Positions 3,478 through 9,842 of a DNA stretch of 14,406 nt are shown piece after piece. The stretch's first letter is position 1, and each line of letters begins with the position of its first letter. A program made the translations under genes and the position numbers. This stretch comes from Treponema sp. (GTDB taxonomy: Bacteria > Spirochaetota > Spirochaetia > Treponematales > Breznakiellaceae), in NCBI GenBank assembly GCA_031271075.1, contig JAISWN010000306.1, forward strand, positions 1 through 14,406, in the 5' to 3' direction. The notes under the pieces were generated by a model. That model saw only the letters and a program-made list of their open reading frames with translations. It made no database searches and was not told where the DNA came from.

Positions 3478-4776
3478 CTATTTTTCCCCGCCAACCGTCC
3501 CGCGGCTTGCGGGGAAAAGCAGGTTGAGGATGATTCCCACCACCGTGGCCAGGGCCACCCCGGCAAGCTCGAACCGCAGGTTCCCGGTAATGGCGAAGGC
3601 CAGGCGGCCGCTGCCGATTCCGATTACAAAAATCACGGAAGAGATGGTCAGGTTCCGTTTGTCCTTGTAGTCCACCCCGCTTTCCACGATGGTCCGCAGC
3701 CCGCTTGAGGCGATGATCCCGAAAAGGAGCATGGAGATACCCCCCAGCACCGGGGTGGGAATGGTCTGTATCAAGGCCCCGAATTTACGGAAAAAGGAGA
3801 GGAGTACGGCGACAATCGCCGCGCCGCCGATAACCCACACCGAATACACCCGGGTAATGGCCATAACCCCGATATTCTCCCCGTAGGTGGTGTTCGGCGG
3901 CCCGCCCCAGAGGGCGGCCCAGGCGGTGGCAAGACCGTCCCCCGCCAGGGTACGGTGGAGCCCCGGGTTTTTGTAAAAATCCTGCCCCACCACCTTGCTC
4001 GTTACCAGGGTGTCCCCCAGATGCTCGCAGATGGTTGCCAGGGACACGATGATAAAGGTCAAAACCGCCACAAAGTTGAAAGACGGAGCCTGAAAACGGG
4101 GCAGCCCGAACCAGGGCGCGTCCCGAATCGCCTGAAAGTTGATGATATGGTAGGCGGGGAAGAAGATCCCCATGATCAGGGTGAAAAGGTAACCCGCCAC
4201 GAGGCCGATAAGGATGGGGATAACGCTGAAAAAGCCCCGGAGGAAGATGTTCGCCCCCACCGTTACCCCAAGGGTAACCGCCGCGATAGAGAGCAGTACC
4301 AGGCTGTATTCCCCGTCCGCGCCGCCCCCCACGTTCATGGCCATAGCCATGGCGGTAGGGGCCAGGTTAAGGCCGATGACCACGATAACCGAACCGATTA
4401 CCACCGGAGGCAGGGCCTTGTCCAGCCAGCCCGTGCCGGCGAACCGGATGATAAGCCCAACCACACAGTAAAAAAGCCCCGCCGCCACAGCGCCCCCCAT
4501 GGCGTAGGGCATGCCGTAAGCCGAGGAAATCCCGATGAGGGGAGGGATAAAGGCAAAGGAGGAACCCAGAAAAGCGGGTACCTTGGCTCCGGTAAGGAGA
4601 ATATAGATAAGGGTTCCCGTACCCGCGGTAAAGAGGGCCGTGGCCGGATCCAGGCCCGTCAGGATGGGAACCAGAATAGTCGCCCCAAACATGGCGAACA
4701 CATGCTGGATACTTAAAGGAATCCACTTTCCCACCGGCGGCCGCACCCTGGGCCCCCAACTTTGCGCTTGAGTCAT
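3478..4776 (-). CDS. uraA: Uracil/xanthine permease, NCS2 family (UraA-like)
   Basis: A 432-residue, very hydrophobic protein of the length expected for a nucleobase:cation symporter of the NCS2 family, which imports uracil or xanthine across the inner membrane with protons. Family signatures are clear. QHVFAMFGATILVPILTG at residues 24-41 is the UraA TM1 motif. CEHLGD contains E251, and NTTYGENIGV (295-304) contains E300; these correspond by motif to the two substrate-binding glutamates of E. coli UraA. The pattern fits 14 membrane segments in two inverted 7-segment halves. The ATG at 4776 is preceded by a strong AGGGAGG. The 134-bp leader region shows no riboswitch or attenuator that I can recognise. 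Uracil is likelier than xanthine on overall resemblance, but this is not proven. Confidence 0.88.
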   Translation of the reverse strand: MTQAQSWGPRVRPPVGKWIPLSIQHVFAMFGATILVPILTGLDPATALFTAGTGTLIYILLTGAKVPAFLGSSFAFIPPLIGISSAYGMPYAMGGAVAAGLFYCVVGLIIRFAGTGWLDKALPPVVIGSVIVVIGLNLAPTAMAMAMNVGGGADGEYSLVLLSIAAVTLGVTVGANIFLRGFFSVIPILIGLVAGYLFTLIMGIFFPAYHIINFQAIRDAPWFGLPRFQAPSFNFVAVLTFIIVSLATICEHLGDTLVTSKVVGQDFYKNPGLHRTLAGDGLATAWAALWGGPPNTTYGENIGVMAITRVYSVWVIGGAAIVAVLLSFFRKFGALIQTIPTPVLGGISMLLFGIIASSGLRTIVESGVDYKDKRNLTISSVIFVIGIGSGRLAFAITGNLRFELAGVALATVVGIILNLLFPASRGTVGGEK

Positions 4777-4910: not shown

Positions 4911-5714
4911 TTATCTTATGGATTGCTGTATTATCCGCTCAGCGTTGCTGTGGAGGATAAGTTCCCGCTCGGTTTCCGAAAGATCCAGTTCGCGGAATTC
5001 TTCCAGGCAGCGGGCGGGGTTCCACATGGGGTAGTCGGATCCAAAGAGGAAGCGCTCCGCCCCGTAGGCGCGGATAAGTTCCCGCGCCCGCTGCTTGCCC
5101 AGAAAGGGAAGGGAACTTGAAATATCGAAATAGCAGGAACGGTGTTGAAAATATTCAAGGGCCAGATCGAAGACGGACCAGCCGCCGAAGTGGGCCGCCA
5201 CCGCAGTCAGTTTGGGGAAGGCGTCCAGGACTTTCGCGAGCCGCGAGGGATGGGAATAGCCGTACCGGTAATCCCCGGCGTGAAACACCACCGGAAACTT
5301 CCCCTCAAGAAGGGCATAGAGATCCATCATCTTCCCGTCGTCAATGTTGATCCGCTGCATGTCGTGGTGGAATTTTACCCCTTTCAGGCCCAGGCCGGAA
5401 AAGCGCCCGATCTCGGCCTCGGGGTTCTCAAGGCCCGGGTGAAGGGCGCCGAAGCCGATGAACTGGGGGTGTTCGGCGCATACCGAGGCGATATAGTTAT
5501 TGATGCTCGCCACCTGGCCCGGCGCGGCGGCGGCGGAAAAAACCACAAAGCGGTCTATTCCGCCCCCCCCATCCTTTTCCTTTCCGGCGCTTTCAAGCAG
5601 GCCCCTTACCGTGCCCTCCCCCTGCATGGGGAGGGTGTAAAAAGCGCCGATGTTTTCCACCGCCTTGGCGGCTATCCTGTCGGGGTAGATATGGGTGTGA
5701 AAATCAATAACCAT
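4911..5714 (-). CDS. Amidohydrolase-family (PF04909-type) metal-dependent hydrolase
   Basis: A 267-residue TIM-barrel hydrolase. It starts MVIDFHTHIYP, with the HxH metal pair at H6 and H8. The other expected metal and catalytic positions are present in order: K114 in GVKFHHD, H145 in VFHAGD, H175 in AHFGGW and D227 in FGSDYPMW. This set is typical of amidohydrolase_2 enzymes, which include decarboxylases (ACMSD-like) and hydrolases of lactones or amides. The substrate cannot be assigned. The gene lies 134 bp upstream of uraA on the same strand, so a nucleobase-related role is possible but weakly supported. No Shine-Dalgarno is visible before ATG 5714. A TATAAT sits six bases upstream, suggesting a leaderless message. 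Confidence 0.85.
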   Translation of the reverse strand: MVIDFHTHIYPDRIAAKAVENIGAFYTLPMQGEGTVRGLLESAGKEKDGGGGIDRFVVFSAAAAPGQVASINNYIASVCAEHPQFIGFGALHPGLENPEAEIGRFSGLGLKGVKFHHDMQRINIDDGKMMDLYALLEGKFPVVFHAGDYRYGYSHPSRLAKVLDAFPKLTAVAAHFGGWSVFDLALEYFQHRSCYFDISSSLPFLGKQRARELIRAYGAERFLFGSDYPMWNPARCLEEFRELDLSETERELILHSNAERIIQQSIR

Positions 5715-5722
5715 AGGGGCAT

Positions 5723-5752
5723 TATAACGGAGGAGGGCTTGGTTTGTCTTGA
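5723..5752 (-). promoter_or_regulatory. Candidate promoter giving a leaderless amidohydrolase mRNA
   Basis: On the minus strand a perfect TATAAT lies six bases before the ATG at 5714, with an AAGACA (four of six matches to TTGACA) 18 bp further upstream. Transcription would then start at or within a base or two of the start codon, in line with the lack of a ribosome-binding site. Confidence 0.45.
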
Positions 5753-5767
5753 GCTTTTATTCGTGCC

Positions 5768-5820
5768 GAGGGGGTTTAATACCCCGCCCTTCAGGGCGGT
5801 TAAAGAGGTATTAAACCTCC
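5768..5820. repeat. Nested palindrome 1 (REP-like), core CCGCCC-TTCA-GGGCGG
   Basis: Outer arms GGTTTAATACC (5773-5783) and GGTATTAAACC (5807-5817) are perfect 11-bp complements, extendable with flanking GAGG/CCTCC. They enclose an inner hairpin CCGCCC TTCA GGGCGG (5784-5799). Structured elements of this kind resemble REP sequences and the ends of IS200/IS605-type elements. No transposase is nearby. Confidence 0.65.
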
Positions 5821-5840
5821 GAGTGCAACCACATCGGGAG

Positions 5841-5875
5841 AACAACATACCTCGCCCTTCAGGGCGAGGTTGTTG
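5841..5875. repeat. Nested palindrome 2, core CCTCGCCC-TTCA-GGGCGAGG
   Basis: A perfect 8-bp stem CCTCGCCC/GGGCGAGG (5850-5857, 5862-5869) has the same TTCA loop and CGCCC/GGGCG core as the palindrome 50 bp upstream. It is extended by AACAAC (5841-5846) pairing with GTTGTT (5869-5874) around a short bulge. The pair looks like two copies of one repeat family. Confidence 0.6.
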
Positions 5876-5880
5876 ATTCT

Positions 5881-6026
5881 GTTCACCGGTGTACGGCCAA
5901 AGGCGTAGCAATGCGGCACTCTAAATTTTCTGAGGGCAGTGTAATGATTCTGCACAGGAGGCAAGGATTATATGAATAAAGTACAAGCCGGATATTCATA
6001 TATAGTATTTTGTTCGCATATATACT
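5881..6026. other. AT-rich non-coding junction before the cassette array
   Basis: No convincing gene is visible on either strand here. Composition shifts from the GC-rich flank to AT-rich DNA. There is no integrase gene and no clear attC-type palindrome leading into the core site at 6027. The stretch could hold an attI-like site or a degraded attC. Confidence 0.5.
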
Positions 6027-6033
6027 GTTAGGC
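6027..6033 (+). other. Recombination core site GTTAGGC at the left end of the cassette array
   Basis: GTTAGGC fits the integron GTTRRRY consensus, and the cassette boundary would fall after its G. It is followed by a 17-bp leader (6036-6052) identical to the one after the second core site. Unlike the internal sites, it has no matching inverted R'' arm upstream, so it may be an attI relative or a broken attC. Confidence 0.5.
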
Positions 6034-6076
6034 GCAATGGGGGCTAAAATTTTTTGCAAAATACTGTGAAAAACAG

Positions 6077-6105
6077 TTGACATAATAATTTTATGTGTAT
6101 ATAAT
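6077..6105 (+). promoter_or_regulatory. Consensus sigma-70 promoter of cassette 1
   Basis: TTGACA at 6077-6082 and TATAAT at 6100-6105 are separated by exactly 17 bp, a full consensus match. It lies 44 bp after the recombination core site, so it belongs to the cassette and travels with it. Confidence 0.85.
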
Positions 6106-6121
6106 CGTGTTGGAGGTGATA

Positions 6122-6586
6122 ATGAAACGACTAATATTTTTTATAATTGGTTTTTTTTGCAGTACAGTGGTTTTCGCTCAAAACGGGGCATTTGATTTGT
6201 TAAACAAACAACATGAAGCTCATAGTACCGTATATAAAATGCAAGACTTTACTGGAAGCACATTGGGTGCAACTTTATTAAAAGCTGGTTATACAGAAGA
6301 TGGTACAGGTGGTTGGGAACATGAATTGCAGCAAAATCGCAGATTAGTAGTTCAATGTAGAATTATTAATGGCAATATTCAAACCACTATTTTACTTACG
6401 CCAGCCAATGCAAGTGAACAACAAGAATTATTCAATGGTATTGTTGATGAATTTATACAAGTTTTGGGAAGAAGGCCGGTATCATCAACTGCCGGACTGG
6501 CTCGTGAGTGGAAAGGAACACCCTATGGTGATATTAGGGTTATGATATTTGCTCGTTATGTTACATTTAGTATGACTGATATTTGA
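6122..6586 (+). CDS. Secreted protein of unknown function, cassette 1
   Basis: A 154-residue protein that I do not recognise. MKRLIFFIIGFFCSTVVFA is a textbook Sec signal with a likely signal peptidase I cut after Ala19 (VFA|Q), so the mature protein of about 135 residues is periplasmic or secreted. It contains no second hydrophobic segment. The body has a mixed alpha/beta look, with a conserved-looking GYTEDGTGGWEHELQQNRRLVV stretch split by polar residues, and no catalytic motif I can name. The start at 6122 follows a strong GGAGGTGA (6112-6119). An in-frame GTG at 6095 lies inside the promoter and is discarded. Base composition is AT-rich, unlike the chromosomal flanks, as expected of a cassette gene. 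Confidence 0.85.
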   Translation: MKRLIFFIIGFFCSTVVFAQNGAFDLLNKQHEAHSTVYKMQDFTGSTLGATLLKAGYTEDGTGGWEHELQQNRRLVVQCRIINGNIQTTILLTPANASEQQELFNGIVDEFIQVLGRRPVSSTAGLAREWKGTPYGDIRVMIFARYVTFSMTDI

Positions 6587-6599
6587 TAAAAGAATATTA

Positions 6600-6734
6600 A
6601 TGTTAGTTATACTTGGAATCGTTCTATTGGGTTTTTGTTGTTTTGGCTATAAATTCATAGGCAGACTTTTTCTGGTAATCTTATTGGGCATTACCATATC
6701 GATTATATTTACTATAGCAATAGGAATTATGTGA
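6600..6734 (+). CDS. Small two-segment membrane peptide (44 aa), cassette 1
   Basis: ATG 6600 opens a 44-codon frame ending at TGA 6732-6734, 13 bp after the secreted-protein gene and 15 bp before the attC-like site. The peptide begins MLVILGIVLLGFCCFGYKF and continues IGRLFLVILLGITISIIFTI. This makes two hydrophobic stretches joined by a short basic turn (YKFIGR), a likely membrane hairpin. The ribosome site is weak (AAAAGAA). It fills the otherwise empty gap between gene and attC, which supports it as the second gene of a two-gene cassette. The function is unknown. It could act with its secreted neighbour. Confidence 0.55.
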   Translation: MLVILGIVLLGFCCFGYKFIGRLFLVILLGITISIIFTIAIGIM

Positions 6735-6749
6735 TGCAGGAAAAACGGC

Positions 6750-6925
6750 GCATAACAGGACGCTATATGCTTCGCTGCCTACGGCGGCTCGGGCTACGAA
6801 AAACCGCAGTCGGGCTAACGCCCTTTGTGCGGTTTTTCTCCGCCACATTTTTACGGCTGCTGGAATTGCTACGCAATTCCTTTATCGCAGCCGTAAAAAC
6901 GTCATATAGCGCCGGAACGTTATGC
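6750..6925 (+). repeat. attC-like site 1 (end of cassette 1), three-armed palindrome
   Basis: R'' GCATAAC (6750-6756) pairs perfectly with core GTTATGC (6919-6925). Inside, CGCTATATG pairs with CATATAGCG, with unequal spacers (AGGA against CCGGAAC) as in the asymmetric attC stem. The interior holds two strong hairpins. GAAAAACCGCA/TGCGGTTTTTC (6798-6808, 6828-6838) encloses GGGC-TAAC-GCCC. TTTTTACGGCTGC/GCAGCCGTAAAAA (6848-6860, 6887-6899) encloses GGAATTGC-TAC-GCAATTCC. At 176 bp the site is at the long end for attC. Confidence 0.72.
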
Positions 6926-6966
6926 GAAATGGGGGCTAAAATTTGTTGAAAATATTAAAAAAGATG

Positions 6967-6995
6967 TTGACAATATAAAATTTATGGACTATAAT
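6967..6995 (+). promoter_or_regulatory. Consensus sigma-70 promoter of cassette 2
   Basis: TTGACA at 6967-6972 and TATAAT at 6990-6995, 17-bp spacer, another full consensus match, 41 bp after the core site GTTATGC. It follows the 17-bp leader AATGGGGGCTAAAATTT (6928-6944) that cassette 1 also has. Confidence 0.85.
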
Positions 6996-7024
6996 AAATT
7001 ATGGAATATTTTAAGGAGAAACAA

Positions 7025-7496
7025 ATGGTAAAAAAACAATTCTTTTTAGGGACACTGGCAATGGTGTTGGCATTGTCTTTCGGGGTGGTTCTGGTGGGTT
7101 GCACAACCTTGAACAGAATTAAACCTATATCTTGGCATGAGCCTGTTCCGGAAGATCAGCAATGTGTTTTATACTATTACAGCCAGTGGGGTTTCTTGGA
7201 TATAGAGTCTATTGACCAGATAAAGAAATACGTGCCGGCCAACTCCGTATACCCTAAAGCCTATACTTCCGGCGGGCAACCATTCCATTATATATGAGGC
7301 AGGAATAGGGGGAGGCACAAATACCTCATATTATAGAGGTTCTTTTACCTATACCTTTGAAGCGGGACAAACCTATTCACTTGTATACGATAAGGCCGGG
7401 TTTCTTTTTTTCATAAAAGGAGTGAAAGAAAAAACAACTGATTATATCGATCCAAAGGAATCGATCATTTTTTTCCCCTTTATTGAAATTAGGTAA
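7025..7496 (+). pseudogene. Lipoprotein of unknown function with a frameshift, cassette 2
   Basis: Translation from ATG 7025 (AAGGAG at 7013-7018) gives MVKKQFFLGTLAMVLALSF and a lipobox LVGC with Cys26, so this is a predicted lipoprotein. The first frame ends after 90 residues at TGA 7295-7297. Directly across that stop the +1 frame (from about 7281 to TAA 7494-7496) continues with a well-formed sequence, YEAGIGGGTNTSYYRGSF and then TYTFEAGQTYSLVYDKAG. The joined product would be about 156 residues, and the simplest reading is a one-base insertion near 7275-7295. There is no homopolymer or known slippery codon there, so programmed frameshifting is unlikely. A sequencing error or true decay are the alternatives. 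The domain is not recognised. A short 90-residue lipoprotein could still be made. Confidence 0.7.
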
Positions 7497-7517
7497 CGCA
7501 AAAGGCACCTGAAACAA

Positions 7518-7557
7518 GCGGGGCTATGCCCAAGTGTAACACCCCGCAATTTTTTTG
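7518..7557 (+). terminator. Rho-independent terminator after cassette 2 gene
   Basis: GCGGGG (7518-7523) pairs with CCCCGC (7542-7547), followed by AAT and a run of seven or more T residues (7550-7556), 21 bp after the stop of the frameshifted lipoprotein gene. It would insulate the following cassette. Confidence 0.7.
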
Positions 7558-7687
7558 TAAAAAGCATTAATCATACGCAGTCTCCATCATTCGTGGCGGT
7601 GTGATAGCTTGCAAAAAAAGGCAAAAGGATTTGAAATTAGTCTATTAAAATAGTGGTTATTGCGCCGTTTGAAGACTTTTCCGACAG
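7558..7687. other. Non-coding tail of cassette 2
   Basis: AT-rich DNA between the terminator and the attC-like site. I see no gene, RNA structure or repeat that I can support here, only a few A-runs and a TGCGCCG (7661-7667) that could be an alternative outer arm of the attC. Confidence 0.35.
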
Positions 7688-7903
7688 TCTCAACAGGTCT
7701 GTTAGCGCTTTTTTGTCCTGTCGGACAAACTGGGCCAGTAGGCGGCTCGGCCTCCACAACGGCTAGGTCATTCCGCTACACGCAGACCTTCGGTCTGAAC
7801 ATTCCCACGCCGTTGCTCCGGCACAGTTTGTCGGCCCTGGTCTTTGCTACGCAAAGCCCTTATTCGGGCCGCCAAACCGTCGCAAACAGCCAGAACGTTA
7901 GGC
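7688..7903 (+). repeat. attC-like site 2 (end of cassette 2)
   Basis: The site ends in core GTTAGGC (7897-7903) and starts at a degenerate R'' TCTCAAC (7688-7694). The inner arm CTGTTAGCG (7699-7707) pairs with CGCAAACAG (7881-7889) at eight of nine positions. Interior arms include GACAAACTG/CAGTTTGTC (7724-7732, 7824-7832), CAGACC-TTC-GGTCTG (7783-7797) and CTTTGC-TAC-GCAAAG (7842-7856). The first 61 bp from AACAGG match the last site (8701-8761) at 57 positions. Length is 216 bp, unusually long. Confidence 0.65.
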
Positions 7904-7935
7904 GCCATTTTTTTGAAATTTATTGCAAAAAATGA

Positions 7936-7964
7936 TTGACAAAAAAAGAAAATTTTGATATTAT
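7936..7964 (+). promoter_or_regulatory. Sigma-70 promoter of cassette 3
   Basis: TTGACA at 7936-7941 and TATTAT at 7959-7964 with a 17-bp spacer, 32 bp after the core site. This is the third cassette in a row with a perfect -35 and the same spacing. Confidence 0.8.
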
Positions 7965-8002
7965 AGGTTTATAACTAACTTTTGAGATAGGAGTGTACAA
8001 AA

Positions 8003-8680
8003 ATGAAAAAGATAGCCTTATTATATTTATCTGTTTTTTGTTTTTTTTCTTGGTTTTTGATGGGGTGCAGTTCAACACCAAAAATTCTAATTTCAACATT
8101 AGACGAAATTAGACAAAGACGCGATCCGTCAAAAAATCTTATTGTGGTTTTCAAAGAAATTCCAGGCCTTGTTCGTATAGCAACAAACGAAAACATCATA
8201 TTCGAGTTGGACGAAAGTGAGGATAGTGTAGCGATTATTAATAGTTTATATGAGAATGAACTTATTAGTAGCGATCCTAAAAGAAGGGCGAGAGGTTTAA
8301 GTTTAAGAAATGCTGCATTAAGCGCTACTTATTCACGCATGTTATCTTATCTATATTATTCATCCTCTGTTCTTCTTGGGGCGTTATATACGGATACTTA
8401 TAGTGACATAGCTGCGTTTAATTTAACTTCCAGTGACCAAATGCGTATCTTTGTTGATGGTACTACCGACAACGGAAACATTAGAAATTATAGATGGAAA
8501 GTTCTAACAATAGATATTAAGCCAGATATAAACGAACAATTTTATGTTATTGAGGATAAAGGGACCTACATGGTGCGTGAAATAACTGATGTCTCTGAAC
8601 TAACCAGTCTTTTTTTGGAAAAGAGGTGGTATCCACAATCGGCTCCAGATACCCAAAAGGGTTTTATTGTATTTGAGTAA
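8003..8680 (+). CDS. Lipoprotein of unknown function, cassette 3
   Basis: A 225-residue predicted lipoprotein. MKKIALLYLSVFCFFSWFLMGC has a lipobox LMGC with Cys22, followed by SSTPK. The ATG at 8003 has AGGAG at 7989-7993. The mature part starts with an Arg/Lys-rich stretch (DEIRQRRDPSKN), then a LIVVFKEIPGLVRIA strand-like segment, a central helical region around LSATYSRMLSYLYYSS with a moderately hydrophobic run, and a C-terminal part rich in beta-type sequence ending near KGFIVFE. I recognise no domain or catalytic motif. AT-rich base use matches the other cassette genes and not the chromosome. It is complete and apparently intact, so it is probably expressed from its own promoter and anchored in a membrane. 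Confidence 0.87.
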   Translation: MKKIALLYLSVFCFFSWFLMGCSSTPKILISTLDEIRQRRDPSKNLIVVFKEIPGLVRIATNENIIFELDESEDSVAIINSLYENELISSDPKRRARGLSLRNAALSATYSRMLSYLYYSSSVLLGALYTDTYSDIAAFNLTSSDQMRIFVDGTTDNGNIRNYRWKVLTIDIKPDINEQFYVIEDKGTYMVREITDVSELTSLFLEKRWYPQSAPDTQKGFIVFE

Positions 8681-8696
8681 GATACAAAAAAACGGC

Positions 8697-8780
8697 ACAT
8701 AACAGGACTGTTTACGCTTTTTTGTCCTGCCGGACAAACTGGGCCAGTAGGCGGCTCGGCCTACGGCCGGAACGATAGGC
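8697..8780 (+). repeat. Decayed attC-like site 3 (end of cassette 3)
   Basis: Starts ACATAAC-AGGACTGTTTACG like the left arms of the other sites and matches site 2 over 61 bp with four differences. It then jumps to CTACGGCCGGAAC and a core reading GATAGGC. The right inner arm (expected near CGTAAACAG) is missing and the invariant GTT has become GAT, so I infer an internally deleted, probably inactive site. Confidence 0.6.
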
Positions 8781-8782
8781 GA

Positions 8783-8896
8783 GAGCTTATATGCGTGGCG
8801 GGGAAACTGGTCAGGCATGCGGGGCAGTTGGTTCTGAAGGTGTACGAGGGAGACCCGATAGCGGCTGTATTTCTGCTCTTAGTCAGCTATTTCAAG
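8783..8896 (+). pseudogene. Possible C-terminal fragment of a DDE transposase
   Basis: A plus-strand frame without a proper start reads ELICVAGKLVRHAGQLVLKVYE. This looks like the C-terminal beta-strand pair (AGKLVRHAGQLVLK) of some IS4/IS1380-type transposases. It runs until the IS1-like remnant begins on the other strand. The resemblance is by eye only and the assignment is weak. Confidence 0.25.
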
Positions 8897-9300
8897 CGAC
8901 CTCGTGTCGCACCCCTTCTATCCCTACCGTGTGCTCCTTCCCTACTTCATGGCAACGATTTCCCCGCTTTCCCGGTGATATGCGTATATAAGCCACACTT
9001 TGTTCTTCTTTTTCCCTACATACCTCCACAATTCGTCTATTTCAAGGCAGTCATAATAGGTTTGTTTCGGCCGTATCTGATATTTGCCTGATTTGAGGAT
9101 TTTTAAGACTTTGGTGATGCTGATTTGCAGCACGGCGCTGATGTCCCGGATGCCGATTCCCCGAACCAGCATGATTTTGACCATCCCAACGATCCAGGAA
9201 AGGCATCCGCGATAGGTCATTTCATGCTCACTGATGAACTGGTGTCCGCATTGGGTACAGCGGTAATTGCGGACTTAATGTCCGATGTTTGCCGTTGTAT
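8892..9300 (-). pseudogene. IS1-family transposase remnant with internal deletion and stop
   Basis: On the minus strand, YRCTQCGHQFISEHEMTYRG resembles the end of the InsA-type zinc-ribbon. It continues through GIGIRDISAVLQISITKVLK (helix-turn-helix) to CLEIDELWRYVGKKKNKVWL (first Asp of the DDE domain) and IYAYHRESGEIVA. There the frame meets a stop. A second frame then gives EVGKEHTVGIEG, which in intact IS1 transposases lies roughly 50 residues later, so about 150 bp of the catalytic core have been lost. A TAA at 9277-9275 also interrupts the frame just before the zinc-ribbon half. Further downstream the sequence is unrelated. This is clearly a dead element. IS1 terminal repeats are not evident. 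Confidence 0.75.
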
Positions 9301-9310
9301 TTTTTTCCGT

Positions 9311-9431
9311 CTGTCTCAGGCTTCCAGGGCGGGGTAAAACCCTGACGGCGCCATCCGTGGCGCCTTTTCCTCCCTTTAGTCGGCGGGTTTTACCCTTCGA
9401 GTCCTGCCTCCCTTGCGTCCGGCAGGACTCG
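9311..9431. repeat. 121-bp direct repeat, copy 1 (carries a tRNA-Arg 3' end copy)
   Basis: Near-identical to 9451-9571 (period 140 bp, about four differences). Each copy contains GGGTAAAACCC and its inverted partner GGGTTTTACCC (9332-9342, 9385-9395). Between them is a hairpin GGCGCC-ATCCGT-GGCGCC followed by TTTT (9347-9368). The last 18 bp (9414-9431) reproduce the 3' end of the tRNA-Arg gene. Confidence 0.85.
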
Positions 9432-9450
9432 CCTTCCAGCCTTCGCCATC

Positions 9451-9571
9451 CTGTCTCAGGCTTCCAGGCCGGGGTAAAACCCTGACGGCGCCATCCGTGG
9501 CGCCTTTTCCTCCCTCTGGTCGGCGGGTTTTACCCTTCGAGTCCTGCCTCCCTTGCGTCCGGCAGGACTCG
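9451..9571. repeat. 121-bp direct repeat, copy 2 (overlaps the real tRNA-Arg 3' end)
   Basis: Second copy of the 9311-9431 unit. Its right end, 9554-9571, is the genuine 3' acceptor and T-arm part of tRNA-Arg. The hairpin with TTTT is at 9487-9508. Read leftward from the tRNA, the hairpin may also serve as its transcription terminator. Confidence 0.85.
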
Positions 9572-9627
9572 AACCTGCTACCTACGGATTCGAAGTCCGT
9601 TACTCTATCCAGGTGAGCTACGAACGC
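9554..9627 (-). tRNA. tRNA-Arg (anticodon TCG)
   Basis: A 74-nt cloverleaf on the minus strand. Acceptor GCGTTCG pairs with CGGACGC (one G-T), discriminator A, D-loop with GGA, anticodon arm ACGGA-CTTCGAA-TCCGT giving anticodon TCG (reads CGA), T-arm GCAGG-TTCGAGT-CCTGC. CCA is not encoded. Its 3' end faces the accessory island. Confidence 0.92.
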
Positions 9628-9733
9628 AAACAAAACATCCTGTTTGCTCATTCCAGGCCGGGGTTTACCCTTGAAGCCTTCCGGCTTCCGCGGGCCGCGA
9701 AAACCCTTCGAACCCGCATTTTCCCCTTCTAAA
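9628..9733. other. Spacer between the two tRNA genes
   Basis: GC-rich non-coding DNA. It includes TTCCAGGCCGGGG (9651-9663), the same 13 bp found near the start of the second 121-bp repeat (the first has one difference), so a third partial copy of that unit may be present. CGCGGGCCGCG (9689-9699) can form a small hairpin. Confidence 0.4.
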
Positions 9734-9787
9734 AAAACGGGTGGATGACCGGGTTCGCCATATAAAACGGGTGGATGACCGGGTTCG
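9734..9787. repeat. 24-bp direct repeat of the tRNA-His 3' end
   Basis: AAAACGGGTGGATGACCGGG plus TTCG occurs at 9734-9757 and again, inside the tRNA-His gene and its flank, at 9764-9787 (offset 30 bp). Six bases, CCATAT, separate the copies. Confidence 0.85.
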
Positions 9788-9842
9788 AACCGGCGACGGC
9801 CAGATCCACAATCTGGAACTCTACCACTGAGCTACATCCACC
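9770..9842 (-). tRNA. tRNA-His (anticodon GTG)
   Basis: A 73-nt cloverleaf on the minus strand. Acceptor GTGGATG/CATCCAC has the extra 5' G (G-1) opposite C73 that identifies histidine tRNAs. The anticodon loop ATTGTGGAT gives GTG, and the T-arm is GCCGG-TTCGAAC-CCGGT. CCA is not encoded. It lies upstream of tRNA-Arg on the same strand and is probably co-transcribed with it. Confidence 0.93.

Follow-up and report, generated by a model that had tools for sequence, protein, structure and literature searches.

Chromosomal integrons have been described in several Treponema, and none in the termite-gut treponemes examined (PMC3607928). The I2 segment is described as specific to integron integrases and necessary for their function, IntI1 being inactive once it is deleted, and the question of which came first, I2 or the attC site, has been called a chicken-and-egg paradox (PMC7790495, PMC4792948). 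Classical attC sites have extrahelical bases in the L'' arm, among them a G that is conserved on the strand that folds (PMC2727003). Where attC sites are grouped with no integron integrase nearby, IntegronFinder classes them as clusters of attC sites lacking integron integrases (CALIN; PMC9024848). This report concerns three integron-type cassettes in a contig of Treponema sp. (Breznakiellaceae; JAISWN010000306.1, assembly GCA_031271075.1), analysed over its whole length of 14,406 bp (the window), and the family of attC sites to which they belong. Within the open-access literature searched, which was that of one library and was seen in excerpt, no treponeme or termite system like this one was found, whether with an I2-less recombinase or with attC sites targeted by a miniature inverted-repeat transposable element (MITE).

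Integron-type cassettes in the window

The window holds a CALIN in decay, whose cassettes belong to a widespread family. Three attC sites, one of them intact, lie without a neighbouring integron integrase, where a CALIN is counted from at least two. Four cores, GTTAGGC (6027-6033), GTTATGC (6919-6925), GTTAGGC (7897-7903) and GATAGGC (8774-8780), are spaced by 892, 978 and 877 bp and delimit three cassettes on the forward strand, at 6027..6918, 6919..7896 and 7897..8773. Each cassette starts with a sigma-70-like pair of -35 and -10 hexamers separated by 17 bp, as read from the sequence. The pairs are TTGACA and TATAAT in cassettes 1 (6077..6105) and 2 (6967..6995), both matching at 12 of 12 letters, and TTGACA and TATTAT in cassette 3 (7936..7964), matching at 11 of 12. 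The array is AT-rich: its G+C content is 31-48% per 200 bases (6001-8800), compared with 54-64% in eight of ten windows outside it (5001-6000 and 8801-9800) and 45-46% in the remaining two. A preliminary description made from this stretch alone had listed the same four core variants, an AT-rich region between GC-rich flanks, and three units of 877-978 bp sharing a plan of core, leader, promoter and gene, all of which agree with the cores, spacing, promoter scores and base composition given here.

The sites were folded as single-stranded DNA and compared with 200 dinucleotide shuffles each. The first, attC 1 (6750..6925, forward strand), is a full site by its boxes and its fold, as the preliminary description had suspected. 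It consists of R'' GCATAAC, L'' CGCTATATG, a branched terminal structure, L' CATATAGCG, the spacer CCGGAAC and R' GTTATGC. R'' matches R', the L box is perfect over 9 bp, and the predicted fold leaves one bulged base beside the L box. Its bottom strand reaches -56.8 kcal/mol, against -29.9 (standard deviation 3.0) in the shuffles (z -8.87). The second site, also suspected earlier (7688-7903), is an attC that has been broken. Its remainder (7692..7903, forward strand) retains AACAGG, L'' CTGTTAGCG, L' CGCAAACAG and R' GTTAGGC and still folds with z -4.44, and its original R'' was lost to a MITE. The third (8697..8780, forward strand) is truncated, with R'' ACATAAC, L'' and R' GATAGGC kept and the partner L' missing (z -2.71). 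At none of the three sites did a shuffle fold as well as the real sequence. A long imperfect palindrome had been proposed to close each unit, and this describes attC 1, the only site with both pairs of boxes and the core undamaged. Cores of the form GTTATGC are frequent and depart from GTTRRRY at one position.

An IntI gene was found neither in the 14.4-kb contig nor in the source assembly (2.53 Mb in 394 contigs, estimated to be 62.9% complete), where the best score against the IntI model TIGR02249 is 74.1 bits (cut-off 265). Four IntI-like matches in the source genome were considered as integrases and rejected, their neighbours identifying them as XerC (beside hslVU) and XerD-like (beside ftsZ). 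No complete integron, in the sense of an intI that carries I2 and scores above the cut-off, was found in this 62.9%-complete genome. The earlier proposal of a CALIN or a detached integron part with no intI within reach is upheld by the one intact and two damaged attC sites, by cassettes with genes of their own, and by this search. An empty site was sought by synteny in 27 spirochaete loci (of 38; the 11 non-spirochaete loci were left out), and flgN, flgK and flgL occurred near the flanking amidohydrolase in none of the 27, many of which are short. In relatives, the matching of start cores to R'' boxes described below puts the ends of cassettes at G^TT, and it stands in for the empty-site comparison.

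The attC family and an I2-less recombinase in relatives

The 19-nt 3' arm of attC was used as a query in 195 genomes from 56 genera of Breznakiellaceae. With at most two mismatches it occurs in 133 genomes and 44 genera, up to 43 times in one genome, while the reversed control gave 10 matches over all 195. Among the 42 genomes with a completeness of 90% or more and a contamination of no more than 5%, 28 have it. Allowing three mismatches, all seven genomes of the source genus carry it at least twice (35 matches, against 3 for the reversed control); four of these genomes are taken to be of termite-gut origin. DNA of the window's attC sites matches many contigs of the source genome, often near contig ends. 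In another genome the 20 listed of 22 arm places fall on 19 contigs, so the cassettes are scattered there. The attC sites are 99-242 nt long (median 176.5 nt, 44 sites listed with a pairing threshold and kept out of the covariation analysis). One bulged base is predicted in the L'' arm, and on the top strand it is A in 23, T in 15, G in 4 and C in 2 of these sites. Promoter-like pairs matching at least 9 of 12 letters stand at 62 of 152 cassette starts, whereas 20 rounds of shuffles gave 11.6 on average and never more than 16. A strict home-made attC scan of 17 source-genome contigs returned five rows at four places, two of them chance-like, against one or two rows per shuffle, and was excluded from these counts.

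Two further observations concern such sites. Three loci (L283, L284, L294) have a second attC subfamily, with 5' spacers such as ATA and 3' spacers such as TTCAC, in a genome that also has the first. A contig from a viral collection (L349, 387-557) bears the same attC type as the window near frames that look phage tail-like by eye.

IntI above the cut-off (TIGR02249, E<=1e-40) is present in only five of the 195 genomes (G010, G011, G013, G014, G139), none of them of the source genus. The two sets are disjoint: none of the five IntI genomes matches the arm, and none of the 133 arm genomes has an IntI over the cut-off. No attC of the window's type was found near the five IntI genes, and a stricter scan gave none either. 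Near one of these genes a single palindrome of another type was seen (L097, 1031-1147).

The L box of the attC sites covaries. Over 46 different pairs of arms, picked on motifs and with no pairing criterion, 0.816 of its cells are paired. Dealing the 3' arms, each kept whole, to new partners gives 0.754 (standard deviation 0.012), and none of 1000 deals reaches the real value. The R'' boxes carry a second signal. Circular cassettes opened at G^TT would leave an R'' that matches the start core of its own cassette. Of 56 intervals, 27 have exactly one R'' candidate and were usable (29 were dropped for their R'' count or a contig end), a few of their start cores being probably false. R'' agrees with its own start core at 215 of 270 letters and with its own end core at 188, whereas dealt-anew starts give 193.4 (standard deviation 5.2; none of 5000 deals reaches 215). 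The match is perfect (10 of 10) to the start core in 9 of the 27 cassettes and to the end core in none; the start fits better in 15 and ties with the end in 5. In a stricter, overlapping set (24 of 47 intervals, 23 dropped) R'' agrees with the start core at 194 of 240 letters and with the end core at 179, dealt-anew starts giving 178.3 (standard deviation 5.0; 15 of 5000 deals reach the real value). There the start fits better in 13 cassettes and ties in 4, and where the two cores differ, perfect matches are to the start in 7 of 23 and to the end in 0 of 23. This matching of R'' to the start core is present in relatives, and it points to exchange at G^TT.

In two genera, a cassette array begins 140-196 bp behind a tyrosine recombinase of the same orientation. 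In the first (L280; genus g4, genome 91% complete), the recombinase lies at 5126-3972 on the reverse strand, the first core at 3776, and attC sites at 2472-2299, about 1630-1457, 968-793 and 272-97, in a single orientation and with different genes, also in one orientation, between them. In the second (L277, a genus of its own), the recombinase at 2775-1273 (reverse strand) is followed by a core at 1133, a gene and an attC site at 263-96. Cassettes 2, 3 and 4 of the first array have an R'' that matches their own start core at 10 of 10 letters, and the first cassettes of both arrays, of which that of L280 starts at the recombinase, do so as well, as read from the data. In an IntI integron an attI site lies beside the recombinase; here the arrays open with a core 140 bp (L277) and 196 bp (L280) behind it, two cases being too few to draw up an attI motif.

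The recombinases at the array heads score 186-211 bits against TIGR02249 and lack I2, with 17 residues between two matched stretches where IntI4 (2A3V) has 60. Two flanking motifs could both be located in 92 of 120 listed homologues, and in 89 of these they stand 23 residues apart, against 54 in five of five IntI. Three members of the group score 211.3, 220.3 and 210.3 bits against the XerA model NF040815 (cut-off 220). In a tree of 32 rows with narrow sampling, the recombinases cluster separately from both Xer and IntI, with support 95/94. In a structure comparison XerA and IntI4 rank close together, and the fold thus favours neither. A likeness of the N-terminal domain to that of two IntI was noted by eye and set aside, as hmmsearch gave it no support. 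A profile built from five IntI (E<=1e-8) recovered Xer-like genes in the seven genomes of the source genus together with three better-scoring recombinases (G101, G102, G105). One homologue is named Hollandina sp. SP2; Hollandina belongs to Breznakiellaceae. It is treated as a termite-gut spirochaete in PMC13067680, in whose searched passages neither integrons nor attC are mentioned.

Taken together, the window may be explained by displaced, decaying integron-type cassettes moved, in this family, by an I2-less recombinase, an account that is regarded as probable if by no means secure. Each cassette would once have been a closed circle, opened and joined at core G^TT with one attC strand folded as a hairpin. 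The three cassettes lie in the chromosome away from any integrase found, inserted or left behind there, and are now decaying, a later R''-targeting MITE having broken attC 2. The mover in the family would be, rather than IntI, the tyrosine recombinase without I2 that stands at the head of arrays in relatives, and it would act on these attC sites; that it drives the cassettes is the best-supported reading of the sequence evidence and fairly probable. Secondary insertion sites of integrons follow a G^WT rule, and some cassettes may land at such scattered sites and disperse in this way, the window being one such landing or its remnant. The right array boundary (8774..8795), where a G is followed by ATAGGC, would fit a G^WT site.

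Several observations weigh against this account. Of four recombinase loci, two adjoin an array. At L279 the gene reaches the edge of the contig, on the side that an array would occupy, and the 11.4 kb of L278 contain no attC. The recombinase was not found in the 62.9%-complete source genome or in three of its six genus mates (G103, G104 and G106), its family-wide spread not having been searched. A scan covered 152 stretches, and the 148 besides these four do not hold it, a 29% match at L401 being taken for Xer. Pairs of recombinase and array were absent from 60 further stretches, and viral contigs gave 11 recombinase-like loci (25-36% identity) and 3 arm loci, one of them (L350) chance-like, none with both. 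Pairing of the R box is no higher than in dealt-anew arms (260 of 1000 reach it) and lends no support; in an integron this is expected, because R' after its G belongs to the next cassette. R'' is closer to the end core than to the start core in 7 of the 27 cassettes and, in the stricter set, in 7 of the 24; that set also has one perfect match to an end core, which is identical to its start core. The cassettes of the window are themselves weak or ambiguous: cassette 3 scores 8 to the start and 5 to the end, cassette 2, with R'' lost, scores 4 to each, and cassette 1, by reading, ties at 8.

The cassettes could also have been made by a classical IntI that has since been lost or was not assembled, with the array-side recombinase an uninvolved Xer-like neighbour. 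T. phagedenis keeps attC sites after loss of intI (PMC3607928), IntI does occur in five genomes of the family, and most of the genomes surveyed are incomplete. Yet the arm carriers, which include two thirds of the near-complete genomes (28 of 42), share no genome with the five IntI carriers, and the order of recombinase then array recurs in two genera; an ordinary CALIN of this kind is considered unlikely, though a contender to be reckoned with. The array orientation and spacing behind a recombinase that groups apart from Xer and IntI, in the narrowly sampled tree, speak against movement by the host XerC/XerD or another unlinked recombinase, with the platform recombinase a passenger. Such movement is quite improbable, even though the source genome has XerC- and XerD-like genes and some mobile elements are known to use Xer (PMC4792948). 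Finally, the long palindromes could be a dispersed repeat or transposable element with incidental genes between its copies, as the scatter of sites over many contigs and the MITE with terminal inverted repeats among them might suggest. The conserved core and arms with their covarying L box, the differing genes that lie, all oriented alike, between the sites of L280, the match of R'' to the cassette's own start core and the promoter-like pairs at cassette starts make this the most improbable of the explanations considered.

Array decay, cassette genes and surroundings

The MITE is palindromic, about 118 bp long, with terminal inverted repeats and ends GAGGCTGTC...GACAGTCTC. It sits in R'' boxes, and most copies have AAC on both sides. 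In the source genome it has 18 matches of varying length. Being short and present in several copies, with terminal inverted repeats and a target duplication (AAC), it has the features of a MITE. Left ends follow TAAC in 9 of 11 cases in the source genome, the exceptions being C85 and C106, the latter following CAAC, and right ends precede AACAGG in 10 of 12 and AACAGA in the other two. In G106 all three left ends follow TAAC. Left and right ends also occur in G101 and G102, where the interior sometimes differs. No transposase was recognised beside the MITE ends in the frame lists of four loci, where no family search was made. In the window, the right half of a copy occupies 7650..7691 (forward strand) in the R'' box of attC 2, its left half and the original R'' being gone; this segment had been considered part of attC 2 and was rejected as half of the MITE. 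Copies in R'' boxes were also seen elsewhere (L089, L083, L086 and others). The attC-seeking MITE shows one route of array decay.

An exported-protein gene had been proposed for each cassette. Open genes are present in cassettes 1 and 3, and that of cassette 2 is broken. Cassette 1 encodes a 154-aa protein that looks exported by eye (6122..6586, forward strand), with five homologues and no named function among them, followed by a small hydrophobic frame of 44 aa (6600..6734, forward strand) without a Pfam match. The 5' part of a lipoprotein-like frame in cassette 2 (7025..7297, forward strand) breaks before 7297, and its apparent remainder continues in another frame up to about 7495. Cassette 3 encodes a 225-aa protein that is lipoprotein-like by eye (8003..8680, forward strand); five matches were found, including itself, and no relatives among the genome contigs. 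Pfam has no family for the 154-aa or the 225-aa protein. Outside the window, the first frame of a cassette starting at core 104 (L085) resembles the Phd/YefM antitoxin at 26.4 bits, below the Pfam cut-off of 29.8.

At the left array boundary (6008..6033), the first core is preceded by a stretch that resembles an inverted attC 5' arm by eye. Further left, a dispersed repeat (5755..5879) found on many contigs of the source genome is a neighbour of the array and not part of a cassette; on contig C37 it sits between two MITE halves. To the right, a 92-aa frame (8942-9220) matches the start of the IS1 transposase family over residues 58-90 and is probably a fragment, and a 121-nt direct repeat is present in two copies that are 98% identical (9311-9571), the second reaching into a tRNA gene.

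Comparison with described systems

What the window alone could not show in the preliminary description is that the array partner in this family need not be IntI. It is thought somewhat likely that a mainly termite-gut family of spirochaetes runs integrons on an I2-less tyrosine recombinase and that the extrahelical base of their attC sites is something other than the conserved G. This could be a state that precedes I2, a secondary loss of I2, or a separate emergence of cassette recombination through a folded strand. If so, surveys keyed to IntI would miss integrons (133 of the 195 genomes carry the arm and 5 carry IntI, with none shared), and an I2-less recombinase that heads arrays would make the question of the origin of I2 and attC testable in the laboratory.

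The window shares with a CALIN as defined by IntegronFinder its clustered attC sites without a neighbouring integron integrase (PMC9024848), and differs in that a second type of recombinase, below the TIGR02249 cut-off, may be the partner here. The array-head recombinases differ from XerA (NF040815) by an extra N-terminal domain of about 100 residues and by heading cassette arrays. Group IIC-attC introns target attC, and the element found here is, like them and the IS1111-attC elements, a mobile element that does so. In contrast to both, it is a palindromic element of about 118 bp that lies in the R'' box with AAC on both sides and had no autonomous partner at the four loci. In arrangement there is a likeness to the chromosomal integrons of oral and intestinal Treponema such as T. 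denticola and T. succinifaciens, in which a recombinase is likewise transcribed toward the array, attC sites have R and L boxes, and cassettes share one orientation (PMC3607928). Those integrons have IntI, whereas the family described here has a recombinase without I2, long attC sites (median 176.5 nt) and promoter-like pairs at many cassette starts (62 of 152).

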